A stretch of 64,000 nucleotides of DNA, from the NCBI GenBank assembly GCA_025355665.1, contig JANXZF010000138.1:52232-116231 (forward strand), in the 5' to 3' direction. The notes under the pieces are model-generated. The model did not search any database and was not told the origin of the DNA. It was given only the letters and a program-made list of their open reading frames with translations. Origin of the DNA: Actinomycetes bacterium. Its GTDB lineage: Bacteria; Actinomycetota; Actinomycetes; Nanopelagicales; Nanopelagicaceae. Below are positions 36,725 to 46,216 of this stretch, piece by piece. Both the position numbers and the translations under genes were made by a program. The stretch's first letter is position 1. Every line of letters starts with the position of its first letter.

Positions 36725-37708
36725 AAACTTCCGCAACATCGTTAACCCAACACATGCTGATATCAGTGCGGAGACTATTAATCCAGTCTTTATCTCTGAC
36801 AATTGTGATTGATTTGTGACAGCGAGATCTGCGATGAAGAGAGAAACCGTCAGGCCCATACCAGCCAACGCTGCCGCTCCAGAAATTTCTTTGATCGAAA
36901 GTGAATCGGGCAATTTTGCAAGTCGCAATTTGACGGACAGCCATGCAAATAATGTGATCCCAATCAGTTTGCCAACTACTCGTCCAACAATGATTCCCCT
37001 TGAGACGGGGGAAGAGAGAAGGTTGCCAAAATTGTGGAAATCGACCGAGATTCCAATATTGGCTAACACAAATATCGGAATAACTAGGTAACTGCTCCAA
37101 GGGTGAATAATGGAAATTAATCGATCAGTTGAAAAACTTCTTTTCGTGGGGAGTATCCAGGCCAAGAAGACAGCGCCAAATGTCGAAAGGACTCGCAAGG
37201 GGTTTAGTCCTGAGGAATAGAAAAAACCGATAACAAGCAGAGATCCAAAATCGTCTGCGATTGCCAGGGTGAGCAAGAAAATCTTTATTGCGGGATCGAT
37301 TTTCGAGCCGAGTAAGGCAAGGGCTCCAATCGAGAGTGCAATGTCGGTCGGCATTGGCACTGCCCAGCCATGTATCCCGGACCCGCCGTGATTTATCGTG
37401 ATGAATATCAACGCCGGAGTGAGCATTCCGCCAAATGCGGCGATAATTGGCAATGCTGCCGACTTAGGATTTCTCAAGTCGCCGTCTACAAATTCACGTT
37501 TTATCTCCAGCCCGACGAGGAAGAAGAAGATACTCATCAGGCCCTCGTTGATGAAACTTTGGCCGTGATGCCAAAAATTGGCATACGCGGAATGCATTGG
37601 CGAATTTGCAAATATCAGGGCGACGATGCATGAAATCACGAGCACGACGCCACCAGCGCTCTCGGTGGCGAAGAATTCGCGCATGCTTTGGGGGATTCTG
37701 CGAATCAT
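36713..37708 (-). CDS. nhaA: Na+/H+ antiporter NhaA
   Basis: MPTDIALSIGALALLG; LTLAIADDFGSLLVIGFFYS; FFLVGLEIKREFVDGDL. Confidence 0.93.
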   Translation of the reverse strand: MIRRIPQSMREFFATESAGGVVLVISCIVALIFANSPMHSAYANFWHHGQSFINEGLMSIFFFLVGLEIKREFVDGDLRNPKSAALPIIAAFGGMLTPALIFITINHGGSGIHGWAVPMPTDIALSIGALALLGSKIDPAIKIFLLTLAIADDFGSLLVIGFFYSSGLNPLRVLSTFGAVFLAWILPTKRSFSTDRLISIIHPWSSYLVIPIFVLANIGISVDFHNFGNLLSSPVSRGIIVGRVVGKLIGITLFAWLSVKLRLAKLPDSLSIKEISGAAALAGMGLTVSLFIADLAVTNQSQLSEIKTGLIVSALISACVGLTMLRKFSIS

Positions 37709-37775
37709 GTCGCAAGACTATCTTCGCGGCCGATATTGCCGGCGCGGTGTCAGACAAAAAGGCTATCGTGTCCCA

Positions 37776-39020
37776 ATGCCAATGGAGCCGCGAAAGTCTC
37801 TTGCCAAGTTAAAGAACGCCGCGATCCCCAAAGAAAGTGCTATTCGCATTCTTAGCCTCGCGACTTTGATTAATACTTTCGGCAACGGCTTATTCATGAC
37901 CGTGGAGGTTATTTACTTCACTTTCTATGTGGGGCTTTCAGCGGCTCAAGTGGGCTTAGGGCTTTCCCTGGGTGGTGCAGTCTCGCTCTTGTTCAATATC
38001 CCAGCCGGTCACCTTGCAGACAGACTTGGGCCCAGAGATATCACGGCGATCGCCTATGCCGGCGAGGGAGTTGCACTTGCAAGTTTCGTTTTCATTCACT
38101 CATTCATTCCGTTTCTCTTTCTTTCGTTGGCATTGGGAGCAGTTGGGGCCACTGGTCAAACCTTGCGAATGGCGACGATCGCCAAATTCGGAGTAGGTGA
38201 AGAACGAGTCCGCATCCGTGCTTACACTCGTGCGGTCACAAACTTAGGTATCGGACTAGGCGCCATATTTGCCGGAGTTGCTCTAGCAATCAATACAAGA
38301 ACTGCTTACGTGTCGATGTTGCTTTTAGATGCCGCAACCTTCTTTATCGCCGCACTTGTCTGGAGACGTTTGCCTTATGTCGCACCCACTGTTGGCAAAG
38401 GCGAGCCTTTTAGCTTCGTGGCGCTAAAGGACAAGAAATATGTCGCAGCGACTTTGCTCAATGGGGTCATGACATTGCATTTCGTCATTCAGAACGTGGC
38501 CATACCGCTTTGGGTGGTTCATGAGACCAAAGCGCCAAGATGGTGGGTAGCCGTGTTGATGCTGGTCAACACTATTTCCGTAGTCCTTTTTCAAGTCCGT
38601 GCAAGCAAGGGCTCAGGAGATGTGAAGGCGGGGGCGCGAATGTATGCCCGCGCGGGATATCTGGTCGCTGCAGCTTGCATTCTGTATGCCCTGGCGGCGG
38701 GAGCATCCAAAATCCTCGCTTGTGTAATTTTGGTTGTCGCTGCTCTTGTTCATGTTGCTGGAGAACTCATCGGTTCTGCTGGATCTTGGAGTATTGGATT
38801 TGGGCTGGCGAACCAAAATCATCAGGGCCAATATCAAGGCGTTTATTCGATGGGTTTTGGATTGGGAGGCGCAGTCGGTCCGACCGTTGTAACTGCTCTT
38901 GCAATTGGCATGGGGAAGGTCGGCTGGGTAATTCTCGCTTCTATTTTTCTTACGACGGGCGTGCTTATGCGTCGTCTTGTAACTGGAGCCTGGATGGCAA
39001 AGAGTTCAAAACCTATTTAG
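37776..39020 (+). CDS. MFS transporter
   Basis: AGHLADRLGPRDITAIAYAGEG; 12-TM profile. Start 37776 preceded by TATCGT-N6. Confidence 0.85.
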   Translation: MPMEPRKSLAKLKNAAIPKESAIRILSLATLINTFGNGLFMTVEVIYFTFYVGLSAAQVGLGLSLGGAVSLLFNIPAGHLADRLGPRDITAIAYAGEGVALASFVFIHSFIPFLFLSLALGAVGATGQTLRMATIAKFGVGEERVRIRAYTRAVTNLGIGLGAIFAGVALAINTRTAYVSMLLLDAATFFIAALVWRRLPYVAPTVGKGEPFSFVALKDKKYVAATLLNGVMTLHFVIQNVAIPLWVVHETKAPRWWVAVLMLVNTISVVLFQVRASKGSGDVKAGARMYARAGYLVAAACILYALAAGASKILACVILVVAALVHVAGELIGSAGSWSIGFGLANQNHQGQYQGVYSMGFGLGGAVGPTVVTALAIGMGKVGWVILASIFLTTGVLMRRLVTGAWMAKSSKPI

Positions 39021-40528
39021 TCTTTTCCTTGGTCATGCCTTGGCGATAAATTTTCTGCAGCGTGAGCGATATTTCTTTGCATGCCACCGAAGACAAGGCC
39101 ATGAAAGGGGTAAATCATTATCCAATAGAGACCACCGGTTGGTCCGATGGGATGAAAGAGGGCACGCTGTCTGAAAATTGTTCGCCCTCGCGTGTCTGTA
39201 TCAACGATAAGTTCGAGCCATGCAAGTCCAGGCAGGCGCATCTCAGCCCGAAGTCTGAGTAGATGGCTCTCTTCAATATCTTCAACTCTCCACCAATCGA
39301 GTGCATCGCCCACCACGAGGTCAAAAGGATCTCGTCGACCTCGACGAAGTCCTGGTCCACCCACAAAGCGATCAAGCAGCCCGCGAGTCCACCACCCTAA
39401 TCGCCATGAATACCAGCCATGTTCACCGCCAATGCCTTTAATGATGTGCCACAGTTGATCAGGCGATGCACGCACTATGCGTTCGCGTTCATCAACGTAA
39501 AGCGACCCTCCTGCCCAATCAGGGTCGCCAGGCAACGGATCACTTGGTGCCCCCGCCGTTGTCGCGGACGACCACGAAGTTGTAACCCGGCGATCTTGAA
39601 TTCGCTGAAGCGCGAGTTCTACTGCCTTTTCGAAGGTGGTGAGGCTCTCTTTGGGATCGGCAACGTATTCGGCGATGTCATGTTCTTTGCAGATGACTTC
39701 GTTCACAAGACTTTGCATCAGGGGTTTTGCAATGCGTTTTGGCACTGGAGTGACCAAGCCGACCCAGTGGCTTGATAACGATGGAGTCAACAGGGGGAGC
39801 GCGAGTATTCGGCGTGGCTTTAAACCAGCTACTTTTGCATATCGAAGCATCATCTGTCGGTATGTGAAAACATCCGGCCCGCCAATATCAAATCCTCGAT
39901 TTATATTGGGTGGCATCGACGCAGAACCAACGAGATAGTGAAGGACGTCTCTCACTGCGATGGGTTGAATTTTGCTGTCGACCCAGTGTGGGGTGATCAT
40001 GATTGGCAAGCGTTCCGTCAAATATCGAAGCATCTCGAAAGACAAGGATCCGGAGCCGATAATGACGGCTGCCCGCAGCACAGTGGTCGGGACTCCACTT
40101 GCTAACAGGATTTCGCCCACTTCTTTCCGCGATTTTAAATGGCGACTCAATTCTTCAGCTTTTGGATAGAGGCCACCCAAGTAGACAATGCGGTCGATGT
40201 GACACGCGTAAGCGGCGGCAGCAAAATTATGTGCATTGGTGTGATCGAGCGATTCAAATGAGGCTCCCGCACCCATGGAGTGAATGAGGTAGTACGCAAC
40301 ATTGACGTTATAGAGTGCACGAACCAGGCTGGCTGGATCTGCGGCATCGCCTTGAACGATCTCTACTCGGGAACTCCATTCTCGGTCAGCCAGTTGTCGC
40401 GGTTGACGAACCATGACTCGAACTTTGAAACCGGCCGCCAGCAGCTCAGGGACTAATCGGCCACCGATGTACCCGGTCGCACCGGTCACGAGAACTAGCA
40501 GCGGATTGGTTGAAACATTCTCTGTCAT
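39017..40528 (-). CDS. NAD(P)-binding epimerase-like plus DUF2867-like C-terminal domain
   Basis: LVLVTGATGYIGGRLVPELLAAGFKVRVMVRQP; C-terminal GGSLYVDERERIVRASPDQLWHIIKGIGGEHGWYSWRLGWWTRGLLDR. Confidence 0.85.
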   Translation of the reverse strand: MTENVSTNPLLVLVTGATGYIGGRLVPELLAAGFKVRVMVRQPRQLADREWSSRVEIVQGDAADPASLVRALYNVNVAYYLIHSMGAGASFESLDHTNAHNFAAAAYACHIDRIVYLGGLYPKAEELSRHLKSRKEVGEILLASGVPTTVLRAAVIIGSGSLSFEMLRYLTERLPIMITPHWVDSKIQPIAVRDVLHYLVGSASMPPNINRGFDIGGPDVFTYRQMMLRYAKVAGLKPRRILALPLLTPSLSSHWVGLVTPVPKRIAKPLMQSLVNEVICKEHDIAEYVADPKESLTTFEKAVELALQRIQDRRVTTSWSSATTAGAPSDPLPGDPDWAGGSLYVDERERIVRASPDQLWHIIKGIGGEHGWYSWRLGWWTRGLLDRFVGGPGLRRGRRDPFDLVVGDALDWWRVEDIEESHLLRLRAEMRLPGLAWLELIVDTDTRGRTIFRQRALFHPIGPTGGLYWIMIYPFHGLVFGGMQRNIAHAAENLSPRHDQGKD

Positions 40529-40535
40529 TACCGAC

Positions 40536-41024
40536 TTACTTCTTGAGAAGTTGGATTGCTTTCGGTCGATGAGACTCCTCAGGCATTGGGAAAGTATTTG
40601 TTTCGAGGGCTTTATCGTTTTCAACTAACTTAGCCAGAGTGACTTTCCCGAGCGTTTCGCGGAATGCTGAAATGGAATCGCTCCAAATCCAGTGAAGTGG
40701 GCACACGAAATCCCACGTGCAGGGTCCGTCTTGAAGTGCACAGCGCTCGGCCTTAAGGGGCCCTTCTCCAGCTTCAACAACTTCAAGCATGGAGATTTCC
40801 TCGGGTGGCCGGGTCAGACGGTATCCACCGTCTTTGCCGGCCTTGGATTCGGCGATATTGGCCCGAACTAGCTCAGCAAGGATTTGGGAGGCAAAAGTCT
40901 GCGGGACCTTCATGCGTGCCACGACTTCGCGAATCTTTCGGTATTCGCCAGTTTCGTACGACCAGGCAAGGCAGAGTGCCGAGAGAACCACATAATTCCC
41001 GCGCTTGGAGAGAGTCATGTTCAT
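40536..41024 (-). CDS. Rrf2-family regulator with three-cysteine Fe-S signature
   Basis: MTLSKRGNYVVLSALCLAW; GKDGGYRLTRPPEEISMLEVVEA; ERCALQDGPCTWDFVCPLH. Confidence 0.85.
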   Translation of the reverse strand: MNMTLSKRGNYVVLSALCLAWSYETGEYRKIREVVARMKVPQTFASQILAELVRANIAESKAGKDGGYRLTRPPEEISMLEVVEAGEGPLKAERCALQDGPCTWDFVCPLHWIWSDSISAFRETLGKVTLAKLVENDKALETNTFPMPEESHRPKAIQLLKK

Positions 41025-41060
41025 GTCAAAAGTATACATAGATTCACAGCGTTTACGTAT

Positions 41061-41099
41061 AGTAAGTTACTTGACATATAGTGACGTGCCCAACATACT
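41061..41099 (+). promoter_or_regulatory. sigma70-like promoter with palindrome at the -35 box
   Basis: AGTAAGTTACT (41061-41071) abutting TTGACA (41071-41076)-N17-CATACT (41094-41099), upstream of ATG 41137 with AGGAGAGG. Confidence 0.65.
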
Positions 41100-41136
41100 T
41101 CCGATTATTGGGGAATCCCTAGGAGAGGAAATTCTG

Positions 41137-42696
41137 ATGCCCATGGTCGGAGAGCAAAACAAAGTGGCCGCTCCACGAGAACTGCCAGTAATCCAAATTC
41201 ATTTGAGGCCGCAGGAAAGAGAAGGTGTCGGGGATCACTTTTTAGAGTCGGATCCGAAAAAGGGCTTGGAACTGACTAAATATCCTCGGGTTGCGAAGCT
41301 ACTTCAAGATCGCAAATTTCAATTCCTAACAATTGTTCCTAATCAACTCATATTCTGGTTTGTAATTCTCATTGGCTTTGTTGGCACAGCTGATCCAGGC
41401 TTGAACTTCGGAACGGCAATCACATGGTACATCTGGTTTGCTCTTGTTTTTGTCTTAATGGTGGTCGTTGGTCGTGCGTGGTGCCTCATGTGCCCATTTG
41501 GGGGTTTTGGCGAATGGATTCAACGAAAAACTTTCTGGAAAAGAACTCAATCACGCCTGGGCCTTGGATTGAAATTTCCAGACCGAGTTGCTCAGTATGG
41601 ATTCTTAACGTCAATCGGTGCCTTCGTGCTTTTGACTTGGCTCGAAGAATTTTTCAACATTGCCGGCCCAGGAAATCCAACGGCGACGAGTTATATGGTC
41701 CTTGGAATTGTTGCAAGCGCGCTTCTTTTCTTTCTGGTTTTTGAGCGACGGACGTTCTGCCGATATGTCTGTCCACTCTCTGGTCTGATCGGCACCGTCG
41801 GCTCAATGGGTATGGCTGCTGGTTTTCGGACAAGAGACAGAGAGGTTTGTCTTACCTGTGAGACCAAAGATTGTATGCGCGGTGGCGAAAATGGTTATGG
41901 CTGTCCTTGGTACACATGGCCGGGAAGTGCGGACTCCAATGCGGCATGTGGATTGTGCAGCGAATGCTTCAAAGGTTGTCCATCCGGAAATATTGGACTT
42001 TATGTTCAACGTCCAATGACATCTGTTATTGCTCCGACGCGTCGACGCGCGGACATTGCTTGGGCGGTCGCGATTTTGTGGGGCTTGGTTATGTATCAGC
42101 AAGTAAATGCGTTACCTGCGTACGCGACGATCGATGATTGGCTGAACAAGCACATGAATTTTCCTCAGTATCCAAATCCAGTGGATTACTTAGCGATCAT
42201 TGGCGGAGTTACCTTATTGATGGCGGGATTAGTTGGAATTATTACGAAATTCTTTGCCGCCCATGACCTTGTTGTTCCAAACGGCGGCGAAAGTTTTCTG
42301 AGTAAGACGAGTAGATTCCGGGCGTTCTTTCTCCCACTTATGTATGGCTTGATCCCTGTCGTTGGATCGGATTATTTCGCTCGGCAGATGCCTAAATTGT
42401 TTAAGCATGCGACGCGTATAGTTCCGGCAGTCGGCCATCTATTCGGAGCGGGCTCATCCTCGTCGACCCTATACAAGACAACAATTCTTAGCGATCCCTC
42501 GATCGTTAAAGCGCAAGTGCTTGTTATTGCATTGGGAACTTTGGCGGCAATGTGGGCAAGTTGGCGAATCGCCAAGCGAGATCTTGTTCCACTCACTGAC
42601 TTCCGACAGGGAATTCAAGTTGCGGCGGTTTCTCTAGCCGCCGCTTGTGGACTGATCGCAAGCGTTTTGTATGTATTAATGAGCGCGGCCGACTAA
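41137..42696 (+). CDS. NapH/NosR-like polytopic 4Fe-4S membrane protein
   Basis: CLMCPFGGFGEW; CRYVCPLSGLIG; CLTCETKDCMRGG...; CGLCSECFKGCPSGNIGLY. Confidence 0.85.
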   Translation: MPMVGEQNKVAAPRELPVIQIHLRPQEREGVGDHFLESDPKKGLELTKYPRVAKLLQDRKFQFLTIVPNQLIFWFVILIGFVGTADPGLNFGTAITWYIWFALVFVLMVVVGRAWCLMCPFGGFGEWIQRKTFWKRTQSRLGLGLKFPDRVAQYGFLTSIGAFVLLTWLEEFFNIAGPGNPTATSYMVLGIVASALLFFLVFERRTFCRYVCPLSGLIGTVGSMGMAAGFRTRDREVCLTCETKDCMRGGENGYGCPWYTWPGSADSNAACGLCSECFKGCPSGNIGLYVQRPMTSVIAPTRRRADIAWAVAILWGLVMYQQVNALPAYATIDDWLNKHMNFPQYPNPVDYLAIIGGVTLLMAGLVGIITKFFAAHDLVVPNGGESFLSKTSRFRAFFLPLMYGLIPVVGSDYFARQMPKLFKHATRIVPAVGHLFGAGSSSSTLYKTTILSDPSIVKAQVLVIALGTLAAMWASWRIAKRDLVPLTDFRQGIQVAAVSLAAACGLIASVLYVLMSAAD

Positions 42697-42707
42697 GGAG
42701 AAATCAG

Positions 42708-44441
42708 ATGACTACTACTAATCTTAGTAAAAAATCGAAAATCGAATCCGTCATTTTAGAAGATCACTTACGCGTGACGGTCCTCGCTGATCGCTGCGCA
42801 GGATGCCAAGAGTGTCTTATTCGCTGTCCAACTAATGCAATAACAATGGACTCGGGCAACTGGACTGTTCTAGCGAACAGTTCTACATGTGTTGGGTGTC
42901 GCCAGTGTGTTCGAACCTGTCCCTTTAGCGCGATCACGGTCGATGGCCCGGCAATTGTGTCCAGTCGCGTACACACTTCGCCGAATCATCCTCAAAAATT
43001 CATTGGGAATTTGGACGAAACGCGGTCGGGATTCACAACGTGGGCAGAAGCCAAGGCCGAAGCAGAGAGGTGTCTTGATTGCCCAGATCCAACGTGTGTA
43101 CGCGGATGTCCCGCGCACAATGACGTTCCTGCATTCATTGCGGCGATAAGGAACGATGACCTTCAAGAGGCACATCGAATATTGCAACAGACCACATTTC
43201 TTCCTGACGTGTGTTCAAGAGTGTGCGATCAGGCACTTCAATGTGAGGGCGCATGTACCTGGTCTCTAGCCGGAGGCGAAGGAGTAGCGATCGGCGCACT
43301 TGAAAGGTTCGTGGCCGACAATGCCCCTGTTCCGCCAGTTGAGCGAGTCTCTGACGAAGGTGCTGGAATTAAGATTGCGATCGTAGGGTCGGGACCGGCG
43401 GGAATAGGGGCTGCTTGGGAGTTGACGAGAGCATCTGCGTCGGTGACAGTATTCGAAAAAGATGATGAACCTGGCGGACTTCTAAAGTGGGGAATCCCCG
43501 ATTTCACGCTGCCAGATGAAATTGCAAATCGTCCGTGGGAGGCACTTTGTGATTCAGGGGTCACCCTTCATTGCCGATCTTTGGTTACGGCAGACGGAAT
43601 TAGCGCGCTATTAGCGGATTTTGATGCAGTGCTAATGGCTCAAGGAGCGGGTATGCCTATTCATCTACCAGTAGATGGTGGATCCTTAACTCGAGTCTGG
43701 GACGCCACTCGATTTCTAAAAGAGGCGCAATCTGCCGTACTGAATGAGAAAACACTTTCATATCTGACAAAAGAAGACAATCCCGGCGGAGTACGGATTC
43801 GAACCGTATTGGTAGTTGGTGCAGGCAATACGGCGATGGACGTTGCTCGTTTGGCGCGTCGACTAGGTGCTCGTGCTATTTGCGTGGATTGGATGGATCA
43901 GCGCTTTGCACCCGTGCGGCCCGACGAATTGGACGAAGCCGGAATGGAAGGGGTTGATATTCGCTTCTCAACGACTATCGACCATCTTGAAGAACTTGAA
44001 GATGACCTCGTCAAGGCTCACCTCAATTACACAGCTCAAAAATCCTCGACCGACTTGCCAGTGGTTGTGTCGAAGTTGGCAACCACTGAAATCGTTGATT
44101 TGGTCGTCATGGCTATGGGGTATCGAGTTGATTCATCTTTTGCGACGTTGCTCCCCAATTCACCTATCTCGCGACGACTCAAGCCAGGGCTGACGGATCG
44201 GCGATGGCAGGCCAGTGGAATTCTTGCTGCAGGTGAGCCGGTTTTCGCTCGTCATCAACCAATCGGCAAACTTGCCTTGGGCCGTGAAATCGCGATGACG
44301 CAGGCCGGAATATCAGTGGCGGATCGAGTCTGGGTTGCAGGGGATGCCTTAGTGGGGCCTGCGACTGTGGTGGAAGCAATGACGCACGGTCGAAAAGCAG
44401 CTCAGGCAATTATTAGAATGCGGCCTTCAAGAATAAAATAA
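42708..44441 (+). CDS. 2x[4Fe-4S] ferredoxin fused to GltD/NfnB-like FAD/NAD(P) oxidoreductase
   Basis: CAGCQECLIRCP and CVGCRQCVRTCP; CLDCPDPTCVRGCPAHNDVPAFI; IVGSGPAGIGAAWEL; VVGAGNTAMDVARLARRLGA. Confidence 0.9.
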   Translation: MTTTNLSKKSKIESVILEDHLRVTVLADRCAGCQECLIRCPTNAITMDSGNWTVLANSSTCVGCRQCVRTCPFSAITVDGPAIVSSRVHTSPNHPQKFIGNLDETRSGFTTWAEAKAEAERCLDCPDPTCVRGCPAHNDVPAFIAAIRNDDLQEAHRILQQTTFLPDVCSRVCDQALQCEGACTWSLAGGEGVAIGALERFVADNAPVPPVERVSDEGAGIKIAIVGSGPAGIGAAWELTRASASVTVFEKDDEPGGLLKWGIPDFTLPDEIANRPWEALCDSGVTLHCRSLVTADGISALLADFDAVLMAQGAGMPIHLPVDGGSLTRVWDATRFLKEAQSAVLNEKTLSYLTKEDNPGGVRIRTVLVVGAGNTAMDVARLARRLGARAICVDWMDQRFAPVRPDELDEAGMEGVDIRFSTTIDHLEELEDDLVKAHLNYTAQKSSTDLPVVVSKLATTEIVDLVVMAMGYRVDSSFATLLPNSPISRRLKPGLTDRRWQASGILAAGEPVFARHQPIGKLALGREIAMTQAGISVADRVWVAGDALVGPATVVEAMTHGRKAAQAIIRMRPSRIK

Positions 44442-44442
44442 A

Positions 44443-44499
44443 AATTCTCGCGTTCGTTACTTGCTCACTTAGGGTGAACTTGCAACGAACGCGAGAATT
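44443..44499. terminator. bidirectional hairpin between convergent genes
   Basis: AATTCTCGCGTTCGTT (44443-44458) and AACGAACGCGAGAATT (44484-44499), 16-bp perfect inverted repeat, 25-nt loop. Confidence 0.8.
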
Positions 44500-44504
44500 G
44501 TTAT

Positions 44505-45437
44505 TTAGAGATTGTTCTCTCTGTAGTACCTGCGCCAGATGAGGCGATGGAACGGAATCAATCGTGGGAGACGATTGATGAACGGAATCTTTGGCATGAA
44601 GATGAAGCCCAAATTGAGCAACATCAAGAATGCGAAGATTTGGATATCTGCATTTGCGGATGACTTGAAAGGCTCAACTTGATACCAGAGCGAGAAGAGC
44701 CAGAGCCAGGATTGACCTGGATAAGATCCGGTCTCGTTCATCATGCCCCATTGGTCACCGTGGAGATGTTGCTTTGCTCCTAGATCGTCAAAGTACCCGC
44801 CGTCTGCAAGGAAGAGCATTGGCTTAGTGAAATCACTTGGGTATGGGGTAACAGTTGTTGTTAGCAATCCATCCAGAACGTCGGATTGCGCAAGAACTAG
44901 CAGACCAGATGCCATTGTGGGAACTGGGCCATAGGTCTGGCTTGCCGTGACCTTTGTGTAATCCCCGGCCTTACCTATGGCGGTGGAATAGTCCGTAGCC
45001 CACTTTGTTTGTTGGCCTGAACTTGCGCCATTCCATTGAGCGAGGGCGGCAGGAACAGCTGGGTCCTTGCTGAATTTCAGCGGAGTGGTCACGAAGTCAA
45101 CCGCTGGATTCACTGGAATCGTGACGCCAGCCCACTTTTGAATCTTTATTGGTCCAAGATTGAGACCTTCGCTAGCGGTGTTGTACGGAGGCCCATAAGC
45201 CGCGCTGATGGTAGTACCGGCTAATTCCCCAGCCGTTGTGGCTACGAAATCAGCTGGTGCTTGATTAGCCCATTGTTGCAAGGTGACTGCTGGCTCATCA
45301 GGGGAGCTAAAGATCGCCGAAATAGCGCCGACCAGCAACCCAACGACCACGAAGGCGATGACGAATTCCTTTACCAAGTCGTACGGACGCTTTGGACCGC
45401 TCCACTTTGCAAGATCTACATTGCGCTCTTTACTCAT
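44505..45437 (-). CDS. cytochrome b C-terminal (subunit IV-like) protein with large inserted soluble domain
   Basis: N-terminal TM (DLVKEFVIAFVVVGLLVGAISAIFSSPDEPA), about 180-aa soluble region, then SWLWLFSLWYQVEPF and a C-terminal TM. Adjacent to the cyt b N-terminal gene. Confidence 0.65.
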   Translation of the reverse strand: MSKERNVDLAKWSGPKRPYDLVKEFVIAFVVVGLLVGAISAIFSSPDEPAVTLQQWANQAPADFVATTAGELAGTTISAAYGPPYNTASEGLNLGPIKIQKWAGVTIPVNPAVDFVTTPLKFSKDPAVPAALAQWNGASSGQQTKWATDYSTAIGKAGDYTKVTASQTYGPVPTMASGLLVLAQSDVLDGLLTTTVTPYPSDFTKPMLFLADGGYFDDLGAKQHLHGDQWGMMNETGSYPGQSWLWLFSLWYQVEPFKSSANADIQIFAFLMLLNLGFIFMPKIPFINRLPRLIPFHRLIWRRYYRENNL

Positions 45438-46051
45438 TTGGCACCTCCGGCAATCTCTTTGGCATCCAGGGGAGGTACAACGCCGTTGCGTCTGACCAGA
45501 ATCACGTGCCAAATGACGATAAATGTAAGTACTAGTGGAAGCAAGGAAACGTGAAGAAGAATTGCCTGACCTGTGTTCAATGTGTTAAAGAATGAGCCGA
45601 TGCCAGCAGAATTAAGGCCGTCTTTGGCTTGCGTGGCGATCCACTGAGAGTCAAAATCCCACTGAATAAGGTAACCGGTGAAACCTGTTGCCACCGATGC
45701 GAGAAAACAAAACGCGCCCGTCACCCACGTTGCGAAACGTCGTCCACGCCAAGCCGCCATCCAGAATTTTCCCCAGAGGTGAACAACCATGAAGACGAAG
45801 AAGAGTTCTACTGACCAAAGGTGCATCGAGTTAACGAAGTGGCCCACGTTTGAACTGTGCCACCAGATTGCGCCTCGCGTCGTAAGTATCAATCCGGAAA
45901 GAATGATGATTGCGAATGATGAAAGGGTCAAAACACCGAAGACGTAGATCCACGATGCAACGTATGAAGGTTGGTCATCTGGAAGTACATCCTGTGGCTC
46001 GAACTTCTCGACTGTGGCTTTACGAAGTTTTGTAGTCCACATTGATGACAT
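45434..46051 (-). CDS. cytochrome b N-terminal (b6-like) diheme subunit
   Basis: MHLWSVELFFVFMVVHLW (H-x13-H); GYLIQWDFDSQWIAT; LLHVSLLPLVLTFIVIWHV (H-x14-H). Confidence 0.88.
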   Translation of the reverse strand: MSSMWTTKLRKATVEKFEPQDVLPDDQPSYVASWIYVFGVLTLSSFAIIILSGLILTTRGAIWWHSSNVGHFVNSMHLWSVELFFVFMVVHLWGKFWMAAWRGRRFATWVTGAFCFLASVATGFTGYLIQWDFDSQWIATQAKDGLNSAGIGSFFNTLNTGQAILLHVSLLPLVLTFIVIWHVILVRRNGVVPPLDAKEIAGGAK

Positions 46052-46216
46052 TTACTTCCCCTTCGGTTTCTCGTGAGTTGGAAAGGGGAGAAGTAGTGCG
46101 AGGAAGAAAAGTACAAAGATGATCCCGATCATGACCAGGTTTGGGATAGAAATCGAAATAAATCCCCAATTGAAAAAATGTGCGGGATGGTTGAGCGAAA
46201 TTGCAAGTAAAACCAT
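46052..46216 (-). CDS. 54-aa single-TM protein at head of cytochrome b operon
   Basis: MVLLAISLNHPAHFFNWGFISISIPNLVMIGIIFVLFFLALLLPFPTHEKPKGK; RBS AAAGGAGAGAGAT before the ATG at 46216. Confidence 0.7.
   Translation of the reverse strand: MVLLAISLNHPAHFFNWGFISISIPNLVMIGIIFVLFFLALLLPFPTHEKPKGK

Follow-up and report, generated by a model that had tools for sequence, protein, structure and literature searches.

Two separate redox gene units, an Rrf2-linked ferredoxin-flavoprotein module and a cytochrome b trio, converge at one locus in a Nanopelagicaceae genome

Results

The window analyzed here is a 64,000-nucleotide stretch of contig JANXZF010000138.1 from a member of the Nanopelagicaceae, an organism known here from its draft genome alone. 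It contains six genes in two convergent sets, which a preliminary description had proposed to form one electron-transfer system. All six open reading frames were recovered with unchanged coordinates and strands (Table 1), but the locus consists of two separate units. The first, module A, comprises an Rrf2 regulator, a NapH/NosR-like Fe-S membrane protein, and a ferredoxin-GltD flavoprotein (FdGltD). The second, the trio, comprises a small transmembrane protein, a cytochrome b6-like diheme core, and a 310-aa protein. The initial identification was upheld for five of the products, by Pfam and NCBIfam searches for four of them (the Rrf2, NapH/NosR-like, FdGltD, and cytochrome b proteins) and as a transmembrane protein for the 54-aa product, but not for the 310-aa protein as subunit IV-like. 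The inverted repeat between the units is a probable bidirectional terminator. Neither module A nor the trio was found described in the literature covered, from which most subscription journals were absent.

The separation of the two units was evident from gene order in relatives. Within the genus, 15 of 21 genomes have the trio, in most cases next to nhaA, and 3 of 21 have the NapH-like orthologue (at least 87% identity); 12 genomes carry the trio without module A. In relatives (L084, L085, L086, L093, and L098), the trio is followed by nhaA, either directly or after an MFS gene. In the window, both of these neighbors are still present, and the NmrA-like, Rrf2, NapH-like, and FdGltD genes stand between them and the trio, an arrangement shared by the two other module-A genomes of the genus. 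Because the gene order is altered relative to that in relatives, module A appears to have been inserted, as a segment of ~5.4 kb, between the native trio and its former neighbors, and the single six-gene system is not sustained. In the NapH tree, the sequences from the three genus members group together as a single clade; the placement of this clade with acid-environment actinobacterial sequences has weak support (64/93), and transfer is the likely route by which module A reached the genus. In base composition, module A did not stand out as foreign. A decayed version of the module was also seen (L096, G035:C60), in which the NapH-like gene is truncated and the Rrf2 gene is seemingly intact. 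The NmrA-like/DUF2867 gene within the inserted island was rejected as a member of the module because its linkage is confined to this genus.

Table 1. Genes and sequence features of the locus, with positions in the window
Feature	Position	Strand	Basis
nhaA	36713-37708		still present in window
MFS gene	37578-39020		still present in window
NmrA/NAD(P)-binding DUF2867 protein adjoining Rrf2	39017..40531	-	within inserted island; linked in this genus only
Rrf2-family regulator, 167 aa, three invariant Cys (C100, C107, C113)	40536..41039	-	PF02082, 3.4e-26; alignment of 22 homologues
Predicted Rrf2 operator, ACGTATAGT-AAGTT-ACTTGACAT	41055..41077	.	conserved palindrome, consensus AYGTWNAGT-N5-ACTNWACRT
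NapH/NosR-like polyferredoxin membrane protein, 519 aa	41137..42696	+	Fer4_5, 5.6e-11; invariant Cys in 49 homologues
Ferredoxin-GltD/NfnB-like flavoprotein, 577 aa	42708..44441	+	Fer4_20, 2.7e-33; Pyr_redox_2; PDB profile matches
Inverted repeat, 33-nt arms, between convergent units	44436..44506	.	repeat found in sequence
310-aa protein, two predicted transmembrane helices, modeled extracytoplasmic domain of ~200 aa	44505..45437	-	model and family searches
Cytochrome b6-like diheme subunit, 205 aa	45434..46051	-	PF13631/PF00033; PDB match 1q90
54-aa single-transmembrane protein, upstream of cytochrome b	46052..46216	-	conserved with trio

Across 85,462 species genomes searched, 59 module-A loci were recovered, nearly all in actinobacterial metagenome-assembled genomes (several labeled Acidimicrobiaceae or Acidimicrobiales), together with two from Chloroflexi; among the hosts are the cultured species Acidithrix ferrooxidans and Aciditerrimonas ferrireducens. 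At every locus where the contig continues, FdGltD lies directly 3' of the NapH-like gene (55 of 55; gaps of 10-169 bp). Module A is a real conserved unit, so far uncharacterized and largely common to acid-mine actinobacteria. The NapH-like protein carries CxxCP and CxxxCP motifs and two further four-cysteine sets predicted to hold [4Fe-4S] clusters. Eleven cysteines (C116, C119, C208, C212, C241, C246, C256, C271, C274, C277, and C281) were invariant in the homologues aligned and C238 was nearly so. The C-terminal half of the protein is an additional multi-helix region with no Pfam domain. Other genomes of the family (L098, L022/L099, L100, L018-L021, and L189-L192) encode a distant paralogue of ~465 aa with 25-30% identity, often in the neighborhood of a two-component pair and of genes for metal handling or cupredoxin-like proteins. 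The flavoprotein combines a 2[4Fe-4S] ferredoxin with a dihydropyrimidine dehydrogenase (DPD)/GltD-type Fe-S domain, an FAD domain, and an NAD(P)H domain; 16 of 16 cysteines for its four predicted [4Fe-4S] clusters are conserved, as are the FAD and NAD(P) motifs. The YRR that NfnB and GltD carry at the NAD(P) site is replaced in the FdGltD family by an acidic residue (DW or EW), which suggests that NADH would be the substrate, with NADPH less likely. The initially proposed path from NAD(P)H through FAD and Fe-S clusters to quinone is sensible for module A, but its extension as a single six-gene route to the cytochrome b lacked synteny support.

The gene divergent from the NapH-FdGltD pair encodes an Rrf2 protein at 34 loci; at 12 others, a NarL/LuxR-type response regulator with a PAS-HisKA_3 histidine kinase takes this position, so the regulator is exchangeable and the two enzymes form the core. 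The Rrf2 fold and the three conserved cysteines are those of an Rrf2 Fe-S regulator, and the protein is probably an Fe-S-sensing repressor with a predicted cluster. The palindrome in Table 1 was present, with three or fewer mismatches, in 33 of 36 Rrf2/NapH intergenic regions, compared to 0.5% of shuffled copies, a comparison that overstates significance because the pattern was derived from the same 36 regions; the site still recurs across lineages. The window copy is the only site in the host genome with one mismatch or fewer. It overlaps the -35 element TTGACA (at 41071) of a promoter-like site for the NapH-like gene, in which a 17-bp spacer is followed by CATACT. Given its uniqueness and this overlap, Rrf2 probably acts as a local repressor. 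Control of the trio by Rrf2 through the same operator was rejected, no such site being found upstream of the trio in ~30 module-A genomes.

In the trio cytochrome b, the heme-ligand histidines H77, H91, H167, and H182 were invariant in 48 homologues. Its best PDB match was cytochrome b6 (1q90, 2.9e-13), and its profile could be aligned to the QcrB of the host genome over the N-terminal half of the latter. Neither the 54-aa nor the 310-aa protein matched a Pfam or NCBIfam family. The identity of the 310-aa protein as subunit IV was rejected: none of its 54 homologues matched any cytochrome b C-terminal family in Pfam, its hhalign comparison with the genome's own QcrB was not significant (E 0.42, 0.1% probability), and it contains no PEWY motif. 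A weak match to SoxC (E 0.005) was obtained for 4 of the 54 homologues. The AlphaFold2 model (mean pLDDT 79.5) places an N-terminal and a C-terminal transmembrane helix around a helical domain of ~200 residues, and a fold search with the model against the PDB returned no significant match. The 310-aa protein is not a subunit IV but belongs to an undescribed family with two transmembrane helices and a predicted extracytoplasmic domain; this family is spread across Actinobacteria and some Chloroflexi.

The absence of a Rieske or CxxCH motif near the cytochrome b genes, noted in the preliminary description, was confirmed for the 6 kb around the trio in the window. Of 37 trio loci searched over the same 6-kb range, 35 yielded neither a Rieske gene nor a credible cytochrome c gene, and none of 36 relatives had the cytochrome b genes beside qcrA or qcrC homologues. 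Several lineages (L134, L136, L141, L148, L151, L200, and L203) encode a conserved protein of ~190 aa with no Pfam family, either close to the trio or elsewhere on its contig. In two loci of one genus, a DoxX/DoxD-Rieske fusion gene is convergent with the trio (L136:6112-7695 and L148:5663-7261); its product could be a missing Rieske partner and is the only hint of one. The separate canonical set that the preliminary description had recommended seeking is present: qcrC (two CxxCH), qcrA (Rieske), qcrB, and the cta genes are clustered on another contig of the host genome. Because this set is present elsewhere, the trio was rejected as the genome's bc1 complex, and it is most likely an unusual Rieske-less cytochrome b complex with predicted quinone reactivity.

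Trio cytochrome b (identity at least ~49%) was found in 47 of 50 module-A genomes. Among 247 Acidimicrobiia, it was present in 9 of the 11 genomes with module A (one of the 11 being the center of the search and thus included by design) and in 11 of the 236 without it (Fisher p ~1e-9). In the Actinomycetes, the two genomes with an NapH-like orthologue and G035, with its decayed remnant, all have the trio cytochrome b, compared to ~42 of 395 overall. The relationship is asymmetric: module A is almost never found without the trio, but the trio is commonly found alone. The units lie within 10 kb of each other in three unrelated genomes (L201, L202 [Aciditerrimonas], and L200 [Chloroflexi]), a rare but recurrent linkage for which a rough estimate of the chance expectation is ~0.4 cases (taking 20 kb in 2.5 Mb for each of 47 genomes). 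In L201, Rrf2 precedes the trio in an Rrf2-TM54-cytb-SIV cluster that is divergent from the NapH-like gene. Since module-A genomes nearly always carry the trio, the two units may work together, and the idea of co-function survives weakly.

Discussion

The interpretation preferred here, in which our confidence is evenly balanced, is that the locus holds independent units placed tail to tail. Module A would be a mobile, Fe-S/redox-controlled NADH-quinone oxidoreductase, the trio would be a native quinone-reactive cytochrome b complex, and the two would meet through the quinone pool, probably only there. Electrons from NADH would enter FAD in the GltD-like part of the flavoprotein, travel via its four predicted [4Fe-4S] clusters to the NapH-like protein, with its two predicted [4Fe-4S] clusters and its CxxCP sites, and be delivered to menaquinone; the reverse direction is also possible. 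If Rrf2 lost its predicted cluster, or if the cluster became oxidized, the palindromic operator would be vacated and the NapH-FdGltD pair induced. The trio would exchange electrons with the quinone pool and, with no dedicated Rieske protein, transfer them across the membrane or out of it.

Several observations count against this interpretation. The trio has a role of its own, because it is common in genomes without module A, and the upstream regions of the trio in ~30 module-A genomes contain no Rrf2 operator. The co-occurrence test ignores phylogeny and shared acidic habitat, and the same applies to the linkage. For the NapH-like protein, no solved homologue was found by sequence search or by fold search of its model.

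The same evidence bears on three other explanations. Transferred module A may simply have landed beside the trio, the statistical link then reflecting common acid or metal-rich habitats only. This is a serious if doubtful alternative: it agrees with the rarity of module A in the genus and class, with the acid-environment actinobacterial sequences that are its nearest known relatives, and with the independent ancestry of the trio in the genus, but it does not predict close linkage in three further unrelated genomes, in differing arrangements and above the number expected by chance. That linkage, including the L201 cluster divergent from the NapH-like gene, would instead fit one functional chain running from module A through menaquinone to the trio and on to an acceptor outside the cytoplasm, for example Fe(III) in acidic habitats. 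The asymmetry of the co-occurrence, in which module A implies the trio, points the same way, as do hosts such as Acidithrix ferrooxidans and Aciditerrimonas ferrireducens; Fe(III) reduction is on record for Acidithrix (PMC8790237). Such a chain nevertheless seems unlikely, given that the trio stands alone in 12 genomes of the genus, that the units share no operator and lie on opposite strands with an inverted repeat between them, and that no cytochrome c is encoded near the trio.

Operation of module A in reverse, with quinol and the proton motive force driving reduction of NAD+ or ferredoxin via the NapH-like protein and the flavoprotein, is less probable again. Iron-oxidizing hosts, a ferredoxin domain suited to low-potential chemistry, and an extra C-terminal multi-transmembrane region that could couple to ions are all compatible with it, but no ion-pump subunit or known motif was recognized, and sequence cannot give direction. 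Least probable, in our estimation, is the most far-reaching proposal, that the trio represents a cytochrome b complex of a new class that has no Rieske protein of its own, with the undescribed extracytoplasmic subunit replacing both subunit IV and Rieske, and that module A, in acidophilic actinobacteria that cycle iron, serves the trio as a dedicated, redox-regulated feeder on the NADH side and has been transferred to freshwater or groundwater relatives.

Few components are known for the use of Fe(III) and other electron acceptors in acidophilic actinobacteria. The locus offers two candidates. One is a conserved membrane oxidoreductase of the NAD(P)H/Fe-S kind, built from two proteins and accompanied by a dedicated regulator; the other is a cytochrome b complex in which the predicted extracytoplasmic subunit is unannotated. 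Both can be tested in the cultured species named above.

Comparison with characterized systems places each component near a familiar relative. The NapH-like protein shares with NapH, NosR, and CcoG the Fer4_5 region, the paired CxxCP/CxxxCP motifs in transmembrane helices, and two further [4Fe-4S] cysteine sets. It falls below the curated cut-offs for NapH (TIGR02163, 34.2 vs. 213.05; PRK09477, 25.1 vs. 234), and has ~210 extra C-terminal residues in several helices. No Nap or Nos genes accompany it, and its partner is a GltD-like flavoprotein. FdGltD has the DPD-type Fe-S, FAD, and NAD(P)-binding domains of NfnB (NfnL), GltD, and dihydropyrimidine dehydrogenase (profile matches to 4ylf, E 6.2e-101, and 5jca, E 3.7e-95) but differs from NfnB and GltD in its N-terminal 2[4Fe-4S] ferredoxin and in the acidic residue replacing the NADPH-binding YRR. 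Unlike the glutamate synthase small subunit and NfnAB, it has no GltB or NfnA partner gene, and its partner in all 55 loci is the membrane-bound NapH-like protein.

The window Rrf2 resembles RsrR and NsrR in its three cysteines, winged-helix Rrf2 fold, and divergent promoter with a palindrome. In Streptomyces venezuelae, nmrA neighbors rsrR (PMC5015018), as an NmrA-like gene does Rrf2 in the window genus. The palindrome, however, is a different one, the target is an Fe-S/flavin oxidoreductase, and the NmrA-like gene runs in the same direction as Rrf2 and is missing from other lineages. The trio cytochrome b has the diheme four-helix core and four heme-ligand histidines of cytochrome b6 and QcrB. 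In contrast to cytochrome bc1 and b6f, the trio lacks subunit IV, and Rieske and cytochrome c/f are not encoded nearby (2 of 37 loci have the DoxX-Rieske fusion); the cytochrome is accompanied instead by an unrelated protein with two predicted transmembrane helices and the 54-aa transmembrane protein. The parts of the locus are known kinds in a new combination, together with one undescribed family.

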